Part shown: positions 37,174 to 40,265 of the stretch, one piece after another | Position numbering within the stretch: the first letter of the stretch is position 1 | Layout of the letters: every line of letters starts with the position of its first letter | NCBI GenBank assembly: GCA_902604065.1 | Contig: CACKXF010000010.1 | Coordinates: 1-40,265 of the forward strand | From: an uncultured Pelagibacteraceae bacterium | GTDB taxonomy: Bacteria > Pseudomonadota > Alphaproteobacteria > Pelagibacterales > Pelagibacteraceae | Length of the DNA: 40,265 nt | Direction: 5' to 3' | Notes under the pieces: model-generated | What the model saw: only the letters and a program-made list of their open reading frames with translations | Database searches by the model: none | Told to the model about the DNA's origin: nothing | Made by a program: the position numbers and the translations under genes

Positions 37174-37533
37174 TGCCAGATAGTTGGACAGTCGCTATCA
37201 ATTGTTGATAGAGGAAAGTCCGGGCTCCGTAAAGACAACGTGCCAGTTAACGGCTGGCGAGGGAAACCTCAGGGCTAGTGCCACAGAGAATAGACCGCCT
37301 AATCAAGGCAAGGGTGAAAAGGTGTGGTAAGAGCGCACCGGGTTTTTGGTAACAAAAACCGCATGGTAAACCCCACGTGGAGCAAGGCTAAATAGGGATA
37401 ACAATGCATATTTATATGTTAAAAACAGTCTTTAGTTCGTTATCCGGGTTAGCCGCTTGAATTTAATCGCGAGATTAAATCTAGATAAATGACTTCTTAA
37501 ATGACAGAACCCGGCTTATAGACTATCTGGCGA
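37174..37533 (+). ncRNA. rnpB: RNase P RNA, bacterial class A
   Basis: The catalytic RNA of RNase P, which trims the 5' leader of precursor tRNAs. The P1 helix is formed by GCCAGATAGT (37175-37184) and ACTATCTGGC (37522-37531). The universally conserved core is present: GAGGAAAGTCCGGGCTCC (37211-37228) near the 5' end, AGGGTGAAAAGGTG and GGTAAACCCCACGTGGAGCAAG in the specificity/P-helix region, and ACAGAACCCGGCTTATAGA (37504-37522) near the 3' end, which pairs with the first block as P4. Exact ends are estimated. No strong intrinsic terminator is visible after it; mraZ begins about 150 bp later. Confidence 0.96.
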
Positions 37534-37590
37534 CCAACAATTTCAATACAATGTTCTATTTTTGTACTTTTTATTAAATCAAGTATTTTA

Positions 37591-37618
37591 TTGACTAAAG
37601 TTTTAAATCCCATATTAT
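37591..37618 (+). promoter_or_regulatory. Candidate sigma-70 promoter for mraZ-ftsZ-rsmH
   Basis: TTGACT (37591-37596) is followed after 16 bp by TATTAT (37613-37618), with a predicted start near 37625. It lies between rnpB and mraZ, and the TCCCA repeats described separately overlap its -10 and start region. Confidence 0.5.
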
Positions 37619-37632
37619 CCCAAATAATCCCA
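37608..37632 (-). promoter_or_regulatory. Probable MraZ operator: three TGGGA direct repeats
   Basis: TCCCA occurs at 37608-37612, 37618-37622 and 37628-37632, each separated by exactly 5 bp. On the minus strand this reads TGGGA-N5-TGGGA-N5-TGGGA, the pattern (TGGGN repeats with 5-nt spacers) described for E. coli MraZ autoregulation. It sits 52 bp ahead of the mraZ gene and covers the predicted -10 and start site, consistent with repression. The orientation relative to the gene and the binding itself are inferred. Confidence 0.6.
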
Positions 37633-37683
37633 AAATGGAGGATTAATTGACTAAAAAAAAAATAGAAAGAAATTTTAAAAATT

Positions 37684-38130
37684 ATGTTTTTATCAAGCTA
37701 CGAAAACAATATAGACAAAAAAGGGAGAGTATCAGTGCCAGCTTCATTTAGATCTTTTCTTTCCTCTCAAGGTTACAATGGTTTTATTTCTTATCCGTCT
37801 TTTAGCAATCAGGCTTTGGAATGTTGCACTCAAGATAGAATTGAAATGCTTTCTAACTCCATAGATACATTAAACCCATTTGAGGAAAAACGAGATTATT
37901 TTGCTACTGCAATTTTATCAGATAGCTCAAATTTACTTTTTGATACAGAGGGAAGAGTTCAGTTTTCACAAAAACTTTTAAAATTTGCTAAGATAAGTAG
38001 AGAGGTTTTATTTGTAGGATTGGGCAAAACCTTTCAAGTTTGGAATCCTACAAATTTTGAAAAATTTAAATCTTTAGCAAGAAAAAAAGCTTTACAAAGT
38101 AGAGCTTCACTTAAATGGAATAACAATTAA
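37684..38130 (+). CDS. mraZ: Transcriptional regulator MraZ
   Basis: MraZ is a ring-forming DNA-binding protein of the AbrB/SpoVT swapped-hairpin fold that regulates the division and cell-wall (dcw) cluster, including itself. Two repeats of the DxxGR motif are visible: NNIDKKGRVSVPASFR (about residues 8-23) and LLFDTEGRVQFSQKLLKFAKI (about 79-99), followed by VGLGKTFQVWNP. The length of 148 residues is normal. An in-frame TAG at 37663 fixes the ATG at 37684 as the start; no good Shine-Dalgarno site lies at the right distance. ftsZ follows directly, an unusual dcw order. Confidence 0.95.
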   Translation: MFLSSYENNIDKKGRVSVPASFRSFLSSQGYNGFISYPSFSNQALECCTQDRIEMLSNSIDTLNPFEEKRDYFATAILSDSSNLLFDTEGRVQFSQKLLKFAKISREVLFVGLGKTFQVWNPTNFEKFKSLARKKALQSRASLKWNNN

Positions 38131-38148: not shown

Positions 38149-39606
38149 ATGAGTATCAATGTTGGTGGGGGACAATTAAAAGAACTTAAGCCTAGAATTT
38201 TAGTTATGGGAATAGGTGGAGCTGGAGGAAATGCTATTAATGCGATGATCGAGTCAGGTCTTAGTGGAGTAGAATTCGTAGCTGTTAATACCGATGCTCA
38301 GGATTTAAGTGCAAACAAAGCTGATGCTAAGATTCAAATTGGTATGAATTTAACAAAAGGATTAGGAGCGGGAGCAAAACATGATATTGGTCAGGCTGCT
38401 GCTGACGAGTCATTAAATGAGATAGTTAGCTTTATTCAAGGTAGTAATATGATTTTTATTACTTCTGGAATGGGAGGTGGGACTGGAACAGGCGCTTCTC
38501 ATATTATTGCAAGAGCAGCTAAAGAATTAAATATTTTAACAGTAGGAGTTACAACCCTTCCTTTTGCATATGAAGGACCTAAAAGAATGCGAAGAGCAGT
38601 GGCAGGATTAGAAGAATTAAAAAAACATCTTGATACAGTTATAGTAGTTCCAAATCAAAATCTTTTTAAAATTGCTAATGAAGGAACTACATTAAAAGAA
38701 GCATTCACACTATCGAATGATGTTTTAAAACACGGAGTACAAAGCGTCACAGATTTGATGGTAAGACCAGGAATGGTAAACTTGGACTTTGCTGATGTAG
38801 AAACTGTCATGAGTGCAATGGGTAAAGCTATGATGGGCACAGGAGAAGCTGAAGGAGAAAATAGAGCTACAGTTGCAACTGAAATGGCTTTAAATAATCC
38901 TCTGATCGATGAGTATTCTTTAAAGGGTGCTAAAGGCTTATTAGTTAATATTACTGGTGGTGAAGATATTACTTTGTTTGAAGTCGATCAGTCGGTAAAT
39001 AAAATAAGAGCAGAAGTCGACCCTGAAGCAGAGTTAATATTTGGTGCTATTCAAGATGAAAAGATGAATGGTAAAATTCGAGTTTCAATAGTAGCAACAT
39101 CTTTAGATGGAAATAGACCAGACTCAAAAACTGTTTTGAATATGGTAACTCGTATCCAAAATAGAAATCCAGGTTATTCAGATAATCTTTTTTCTAATAA
39201 AAACTTGGAAAAAAACGTTATTAATTCAATTAATGGAGCTAACGCTCTTAAACTTGATGAAGAATATGAAGTTAATTCATCAGAAAGCTTAAATGACAAT
39301 CAAGAAGAGAACAAAACTAATAATCTTGATGAAGAAAAAGAAGTTGTTTCTAATGGAATTTCAATAGAAAATGCATCCTACATAGAAGACAACATAGATA
39401 TAGACAACCATTCTAATAGCAAAAGAGAAGTAGAAGAAGAAACTCCTCAATTATTTTCTGAAGAAAATCATTATATTGAGACTGATCTAGGCGTGGAAAA
39501 TCAAATAAATATAGATGAAAAAGAAAATGAAAAACTTTTTGATAGGCCGCTTAGCGAAGAAGAAGAGTTTGAAATACCTGCTTTTTTGAGAAAACAAAAG
39601 TTTTAA
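38149..39606 (+). CDS. ftsZ: Cell division protein FtsZ
   Basis: FtsZ is the tubulin-like GTPase that forms the division ring. The nucleotide-binding core has GIGGAGGNAINAMIES (residues 22-37), the tubulin signature GGGTGTGAS (about 108-116) and the T7 synergy-loop region VNLDFADVETVMSAMGKAMMGTG (about 208-230). The core ends around 330. A long acidic, Asn/Glu-rich unstructured linker covers about 335-470, and the C-terminal peptide EIPAFLRKQKF binds FtsA and other partners. The full length is 485 residues. It lies between mraZ and rsmH instead of after ftsQA. Confidence 0.98.
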   Translation: MSINVGGGQLKELKPRILVMGIGGAGGNAINAMIESGLSGVEFVAVNTDAQDLSANKADAKIQIGMNLTKGLGAGAKHDIGQAAADESLNEIVSFIQGSNMIFITSGMGGGTGTGASHIIARAAKELNILTVGVTTLPFAYEGPKRMRRAVAGLEELKKHLDTVIVVPNQNLFKIANEGTTLKEAFTLSNDVLKHGVQSVTDLMVRPGMVNLDFADVETVMSAMGKAMMGTGEAEGENRATVATEMALNNPLIDEYSLKGAKGLLVNITGGEDITLFEVDQSVNKIRAEVDPEAELIFGAIQDEKMNGKIRVSIVATSLDGNRPDSKTVLNMVTRIQNRNPGYSDNLFSNKNLEKNVINSINGANALKLDEEYEVNSSESLNDNQEENKTNNLDEEKEVVSNGISIENASYIEDNIDIDNHSNSKREVEEETPQLFSEENHYIETDLGVENQINIDEKENEKLFDRPLSEEEEFEIPAFLRKQKF

Positions 39607-39624: not shown

Positions 39625-40265
39625 ATGAAATCACCCAACACATCGCTGGACATAAATCATATTCCAGTGATGCTGAAAGAGGTTATAAAAATTTGTTCTC
39701 CTAAGCAGGGAGACAATATCCTAGACTGTACATTTGGAGGCGGAGGGTATTCTAAAGAGTTATTAAAATTTTCATCCACAAATATAATTGCGTTTGATAG
39801 AGATAAAGAAGTTCTGCCTGTAGCAAATTTTATAAAAAAAAAATTTCACAAAAGGTTTAATTTTCATCTTAGTAAATTTAGCAATATCGATAAACTTCCA
39901 GAAAGAAGTGTTGATGCTGTAATTTTTGATTTAGGTGTTTCATCATTACAACTTGATAATTTAGAAAGAGGGTTTTCTTTTAAATCAAAAAGTGACTTAG
40001 ATATGGATATGGGTTTAGCAGCTTTATCTGCGAAAGATGTAATAAATAATTATGATGGCAAAATTTTAAGAAATATAATTAGGCATTTAGGAGATGAAAA
40101 GCAAGCATCTTCTATAACAAAAAATATTTTAATTAAGAGGAAATCAACAATTATAAAAACAACCGATGAATTGGTTGATATTATTAAAAAAAGTAAAAAA
40201 AAAGTCTTTAATCAAAAAATAGACGTTTGCACCAAAACATTTCAAGCAATTCGTATTTTTGTAAA
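39625..40265 (+). CDS. rsmH: 16S rRNA (cytosine-1402 N4)-methyltransferase, N-terminal part
   Basis: RsmH (MraW) methylates C1402 of 16S rRNA, which lies in the P site. The gene begins at ATG 39625, 18 bp after ftsZ (in-frame TAA at 39616 excludes an earlier start) and runs past the window end, giving 213 codons here. Motifs are HIPVMLKEV (residues 12-20), the SAM-binding DCTFGGGGYS and FDRD, DLGVSSLQLDNLERGFSF, DMDMG and, at the edge, KTFQAIRIFV. All are diagnostic of the family. Confidence 0.95.
   Translation, partial: MKSPNTSLDINHIPVMLKEVIKICSPKQGDNILDCTFGGGGYSKELLKFSSTNIIAFDRDKEVLPVANFIKKKFHKRFNFHLSKFSNIDKLPERSVDAVIFDLGVSSLQLDNLERGFSFKSKSDLDMDMGLAALSAKDVINNYDGKILRNIIRHLGDEKQASSITKNILIKRKSTIIKTTDELVDIIKKSKKKVFNQKIDVCTKTFQAIRIFV

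Follow-up and report, generated by a model that had tools for sequence, protein, structure and literature searches.

We found that the cell division operon of an uncultured Pelagibacteraceae bacterium is headed by two conserved elements: an array of three boxes over the mraZ promoter, which very likely serves as an operator for MraZ, and a short out-of-frame open reading frame (ORF), almost certainly translated, which crosses the mraZ start codon and may throttle the translation of MraZ. To this reading, with operator, translated ORF, and throttle taken together, we assign a probability of roughly 0.4. The DNA analyzed (the window) is the whole stretch of 40,265 nucleotides, and its relevant features are collected in Table 1.

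Table 1. Features at the head of the division operon in the window.
Feature	Position	Strand	Basis and remarks
-35 element TTGACT	37591..37596	+	promoter scan; TTGAC near box 1 in 113/116 family loci
MraZ box 1 (predicted), TGGGA on minus strand	37608..37612	-	sequence; array in 221/221 loci, box 1 usually ACCCA
-10 element TATTAT	37613..37618	+	between box 1 and box 2; promoter scan, family hexamers
MraZ box 2 (predicted)	37618..37622	-	sequence; family conservation
MraZ box 3 (predicted)	37628..37632	-	sequence; family conservation
Shine–Dalgarno GGAGG of overlapping ORF	37637..37641	+	sequence; pairing energies in 221 loci
Overlapping ORF	37647..37751	+	TTG start, 34 codons, TAG 37749-37751; out of mraZ frame
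mraZ	37684..38130	+	Pfam PF02381; PDB MraZ chains by sequence, best E 3.6e-7
mraZ codon 18, GTG, possible restart codon	37735..37737	+	GTG in 220/221 loci
ftsZ	38149..39606	+	Pfam PF00091 and PF12327
rsmH (mraW)	39625..40263	+	Pfam PF01795; cut by window end

In the window, mraZ is followed on the plus strand by ftsZ and rsmH. An earlier note on this DNA had named these three as the genes behind the boxes, and the assignment stands: the first encodes a true MraZ by Pfam profile search (PF02381, 63.8 bits at a cut-off of 23, in two stretches). The closest named relatives by MraZ are uncultured Pelagibacteraceae (order Pelagibacterales, class Alphaproteobacteria), with at best 85% identity over the protein. 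A structure model of MraZ reached a mean pLDDT of 58.5 and was not used. Directly upstream of the mraZ promoter, across a short gap, lies the gene for RNase P RNA (rnpB, 37176–37534), the sole Rfam match between 36600 and 38200. The same neighborhood of rnpB and mraZ appears for Candidatus Pelagibacter ubique HTCC1062 in the excerpted text of PMC2704228.

MraZ is present in 333 of 397 Pelagibacteraceae (SAR11) genomes. Removal of duplicates by sequence gave sets of 116, 138, and finally 221 mraZ loci of this family, with none set aside. These loci are related rather than independent, and the counts were made without a tree. Among the 80 loci that carry a name, almost all come from uncultured single-cell or metagenome assemblies, where one-base errors in A-runs are possible. 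The next gene after mraZ is ftsZ in 115/116 and 31/31 family loci, and in 12/13 loci of a sister family. Among 30 other alphaproteobacterial loci it is rsmH in 27 and ftsZ in 2, with no hit in 1. The order found in the window, with ftsZ directly after mraZ and before rsmH, is common to the sister family and to loci L212 and L216.

The three boxes are copies of TCCCA with a period of exactly 10 bp, and they read on the minus strand as TGGGA-N5-TGGGA-N5-TGGGA, as the earlier note had it. From the frequency of TCCCA, 1.6e-5 such exact triples are expected in the window. A search for 5-mers with at least three G or C that occur three times at period 10 returned two in the window, which we take as two registers of one array, and none in each of 50 shuffles. 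The pair TCCCA-N5-TCCCA with one mismatch allowed is, by itself, not remarkable (three in the window, shuffle mean 1.06, with 9 of 100 shuffles reaching three). Across the 871,858 bases of this genome, which is estimated to be 75% complete, an exact TCCCA pair recurs in one other place and no second exact triple occurs; we therefore rejected a wider MraZ regulon for this genome, at that coverage.

The promoter TTGACT-N16-TATTAT that had been proposed under the boxes is present and is overlapped by them. Its -10 hexamer forms the first spacer of the array, and the last T of the hexamer is also the first T of box 2. Although this is the best promoter-like match between 37100 and 38200 (10 of 12 positions), the scan of that interval returned four such sites against a shuffle mean of 3.9, so that the promoter call rests on conservation. 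Of 116 loci of the family, 113 have TTGAC upstream of the array, at a distance suited to a promoter. The spacer between this element and the hexamer behind box 1 measures 16 nt in 78 loci, 17 in 24, 15 in 9, and 19 in 2, and the hexamer itself is TACTAT in 59 of the 116, TATGAT in 11, and TATTAT in 10, with various sequences in the remainder. Box 3 probably lies just downstream of the transcription start, which we place near 37625. Given that the -10 element is the first spacer, a protein that occupied all three boxes would span roughly positions -17 to +8 of the promoter.

The earlier note had made its reading depend on the fate of the boxes in close relatives. All 221 distinct Pelagibacteraceae loci carry three boxes at 10-bp phase with the same spacing. 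The array scored 15 of 15 in 17 loci, 14 in 176, and 13 in 28, and to two decimals the CCA of box 1 shows 100% conservation, as does the CCCA of each of the other two boxes. ACCCA, TCCCA, TCCCA is the commonest form (86/116); the triple TCCCA of the window occurs in 15/116. That the boxes bind another protein, or are mere promoter sequence on which MraZ does not act, appears very improbable to us. Boxes 1 and 2 flank the -10 element and could share some of the constraint on the promoter; however, apart from one T, the box cores lie outside both hexamers and are more constant than the spacer between -35 and -10, and a 10-bp phased array beside mraZ is found throughout the class and, inverted, throughout the phylum. 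We consider it very likely that the array is an operator of a known kind, through which MraZ would repress its own mraZ–ftsZ–rsmH operon. The suggestion that MraZ bound there could block RNA polymerase agrees with the overlap between the array and a conserved promoter.

The boxes point away from mraZ. The earlier note had seen in this a possible departure from the known case, and they are indeed opposite to those of E. coli; among the sampled Alphaproteobacteria, however, this orientation is the normal state. Boxes of the CCCA type stand on the gene strand in 13/13 loci of the sister family, which belongs to the same taxonomic order, and in 28 of the 30 other alphaproteobacterial loci (three exact cores in 19, two in 9); the remaining two gave one weak GGGA-type array and one tie. 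Outside the class, 25 of 30 loci from the phylum are of the GGGA type (6 of them weak), two are ties, and three are of the CCCA type, one weak (L335) and two at distances of 188 and 180 nt (L321 and L343). These loci were scored on the gene strand and are the best-scoring hits of each search rather than a random draw. From these counts the reversed boxes appear to be a class-wide trait, and the strand difference between Alphaproteobacteria and the sampled rest of the phylum is one for MraZ–DNA structures to explain. We do not regard orientation as defining a MraZ-box operator.

Eraso et al. (2014) reportedly placed the MraZ boxes of E. coli upstream of the dcw cluster. In the MG1655 sequence (L063) we found a GGGA-type array of TGGGA, TGGGG, and TGGGA at 10-bp phase before mraZ. 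The window resembles this arrangement in having three G-rich, TGGG-type direct repeats at 10-bp phase with mraZ directly downstream. It differs in that its boxes lie on the opposite strand and flank the -10 element, and that ftsZ directly follows mraZ. The excerpted text of PMC8475190 likewise locates the E. coli boxes upstream of the dcw cluster and describes a MraZ site AAAGTG[T/G] for Mollicutes, restricted in Mycoplasma genitalium to the mraZ promoter. Here, too, a reduced genome has direct repeats in its mraZ promoter and the exact triple was found nowhere else, although the box sequence differs from the Mollicutes site. By that account M. genitalium provides a precedent for MraZ control of a division cluster in a reduced genome, which the earlier note had considered notable.

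More surprising than the boxes is a conserved out-of-frame ORF that the earlier note did not mention. Behind box 3 of the window, GGAGG is followed by five bases and a TTG, 37 nt before the mraZ ATG and hence offset by 1 modulo 3. The frame opened by this TTG crosses the mraZ ATG; in the family, this frame ends 62 or 68 nt inside mraZ. Over the 221 loci the mean Shine–Dalgarno (SD) pairing energy is -6.31 before the upstream start versus -2.18 before the mraZ ATG. The start with the strongest SD is offset from the mraZ frame by 1 in 216 loci, by 0 in 3, and by 2 in 2. The 216 offset-1 starts (107 TTG, 107 ATG, 2 GTG) stand at 20 different distances from the mraZ ATG, from 7 to 79 nt, and in 214 of them the frame runs uninterrupted to the stop at +62 or +68. 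The other two, L040 and L111, have a leader stop behind their strongest start but also an open start further downstream in that frame. Where the start lies at -37 (93 loci), the leader contains 2 stops in the overlapping frame versus 220 and 154 in the other two frames.

Since each codon of the overlapping frame consists of the third base of one mraZ codon and the first two bases of the next, a silent change in mraZ can create a stop in this frame. The frame is nevertheless open over mraZ codons 1–20 in 219 of the 221 loci. The expectation, with synonymous codons drawn at random by the usage of the family in equal trials per locus, is 1.09 loci. We scored codons that end in T or C (Phe, Tyr, Asn, Asp, His, Cys, and AGY Ser). 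Within mraZ codons 2–19, positions at which T would make a stop hold 650 C and 4 T, whereas positions with no such threat hold 24 C and 342 T. From codon 25 onward the stop-critical context shows 522 C versus 2035 T. A general codon or context preference for C can be rejected, because C accounts for 20% of these later mraZ positions (522/2557) and for 23% in ftsZ (440/1873), and because codon 8 is AAT in all 13 sister-family loci.

The end of the frame is under selection as well. After the mraZ ATG the first stop falls at +68 in 168 loci, at +62 in 51, and at +26 in 2. All 221 loci have a stop at +62 or +68, versus 177.9 expected; the 9 loci that lack the +68 stop all have the one at +62, as do 42 of the remaining 212. 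Codons 2–17 of the mraZ frame are conserved in their own right (mean entropies of 0.23, 0.17, and 0.83 for codon positions 1 to 3), and this selection on both frames indicates that both are used. With an SD-led start and a reading frame under selection, the ORF has the makings of an upstream ORF (uORF), and we consider it almost certain from these sequence patterns that it is translated across Pelagibacteraceae.

The exceptional loci and the sister family, in which a start lies in frame with mraZ, serve as natural controls. Three family loci have their strong start in the mraZ frame, and two of these, L012 and L107, are the only ones whose overlapping frame is stopped early (through AAT at codon 8 and GAT at codon 11). 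The third, L220, combines an in-frame strong start with an intact overlap, and L042 and L089 have a strong start in the third frame, also with the overlap intact; these three may represent recent changes or assembly errors. In the set of 116, the one-base cases that lack the overlapping start are L042, L068 (on the same contig as L012), L089, and L107. The sister family has a strong TTG in the mraZ frame in 12/12 scored loci, L171 being unscored, and none of its 13 loci has an open overlap. Initiation at this TTG in sister-family loci L168–L180 (12 of 13 scored) would produce MraZ with about a dozen additional hydrophobic residues at its N-terminus. As this family has the mraZ–ftsZ order without the ORF, a one-to-one link between the two is out. 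Among the other Alphaproteobacteria the overlap is open in 8/25 parsed loci (5 of 30 were not parsed), a number that is uninformative since the third frame is also often open (11/25).

The open frame and the evidence for its translation would also fit a functional small basic protein of 24–47 residues acting for itself. The peptide has Ala at the position of mraZ GTG codon 18 (GTG18) in 137/138 loci, and several loci with long leaders share, by eye, a DF...DLKK-like leader sequence. Against this, the leader part varies in sequence and spans 2 to 26 codons, substitutions such as K/E are common within the overlap, the peptide has no Pfam match, and two loci and the sister family manage without it. 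We consider this explanation improbable. RNA-based control was looked for in the leader as well. Neither a terminator nor an attenuator-type structure was found there (mean z of +0.24 over 40 of the 138 loci), and the consensus fold of 76 equal-length leaders reached -1.8 kcal/mol, with no conserved structure.

We tentatively suggest, at somewhat less than even odds, that the overlapping ORF acts as a throttle on MraZ translation. An MraZ oligomer would read three boxes one DNA turn apart, cover the -10 element and the start point, and so exclude RNA polymerase. On the mRNA, the sole strong ribosome site would start the out-of-frame ORF across the SD-poor mraZ start; ribosomes on this ORF would pass the mraZ AUG and finish too far off to restart there. 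Little repressor would then be made from an mRNA that must still yield much FtsZ, and ftsZ, with a ribosome site of its own (GGAGGGAG before 38149), could be made freely. The mraZ ATG lacks an SD comparable to that of the upstream start. We favor a throttle because stops close to the mraZ ATG are disfavored by selection and one at +62 or +68 is demanded. Restart at the ATG itself after termination close by was rejected, since early stops are selected against and coupling of this kind would call for the opposite.

If ribosomes slipped by +1 out of the overlapping frame into that of mraZ, in a programmed frameshift similar to that of prfB, MraZ with another N-terminus would result. Many of the loci that stop at +68 have a slippery-looking NTT before the stop (among 138 loci, residue 21 is F 75 times and I 34 times). 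However, 51 of 221 loci stop first at +62, where by eye the preceding codon could not pair again after a +1 slip; no slippery site is common to all loci, and the conservation of the mraZ frame in codons 2–17 argues that its own start is used. Such a frameshift is therefore most improbable.

Three features are left unexplained by a plain throttle: codon 18 is held as GTG, AGA is rare at codon 15 (23/138 loci versus 98 expected), and codons 12–16 show an excess of G. In the set of 138 loci, the excess of third-position G at mraZ codons 12, 14, 15, 16, and 18 goes beyond what stop avoidance requires. GTG18, preceded by purine-rich codons and followed closely by the stop, suggests termination and restart: ribosomes that end the overlapping ORF at +62 or +68 would restart at this codon, to make an N-terminally shortened MraZ or to keep up translation of mraZ toward ftsZ. 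GTG18 was expected in about 12 of 138 loci and is nearly invariant (220/221), and the sole exception is a GTA in L012, which has lost the overlapping frame. At nearly all loci it is the only start codon between +40 and +95; it lies 8–14 nt upstream of the end of the stop, the position of which is fixed, and behind G-rich codons 12–16, and the mean SD energy before it is -7.33 versus -5.91 for random coding with the frame open. On the other hand, this SD exceeds its own expectation in just 65 of 116 loci, L107 has kept GTG18 without the overlapping frame, GTG18 also yields the Ala of the overlapping peptide, and MraZ without residues 1–17 would lose the conserved D11, K13, and R15. On balance we view restart as unlikely. 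It is a rather unlikely, more elaborate proposal that the head of the division operon carries a dual-coding control element, an ORF over the mraZ start that ends beside an invariant GTG, through which one mRNA would yield scarce full-length and shortened MraZ, with the balance of the two tuning MraZ repression of ftsZ.

Bacterial leader peptides and uORFs exist, as do overlapping genes coupled by termination and restart. Like these, the throttle proposed above would be a short SD-led ORF that controls access to a downstream start. It differs from them by its out-of-frame overlap of 62–68 nt, the selected position of its stop, and the lack of a conserved RNA structure. The open-licence literature searched, at the level of titles and the beginnings of abstracts, returned no description of an overlapping ORF at an mraZ start. 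The closest printed parallel that we found is the small ORF (sORF) of Rhodobacter sphaeroides. As described in the excerpted text of PMC5089854, the mraZ leader of this species contains the sRNA UpsM and an sORF that is weakly translated in a lacZ fusion, overlaps a terminator in the 268-nt 5' UTR, and is said to be restricted to that species. In both alphaproteobacteria the leader of mraZ holds a small ORF. The ORF of the window differs from the sORF as portrayed there by its overlap with the beginning of the mraZ coding region, its strong SD, and its family-wide occurrence, and no terminator or structure was found in its leader.

SAR11 bacteria rank with the most numerous cells of the ocean, and to our knowledge little is known of how they control division with few regulators. 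The conserved operator implies that control by MraZ has been retained in SAR11, and with the overlapping ORF the MraZ switch would gain a second, translational level of control in a lineage noted for its streamlining.

Two side observations concern single loci of the family. The leader of L105 contains a CCCA; its leader frame is open by eye, and the overlap is intact. The conserved Gly of the KGR motif (mraZ codon 14) is replaced by Trp in L042 and by Met in L044, replacements that might alter DNA binding.
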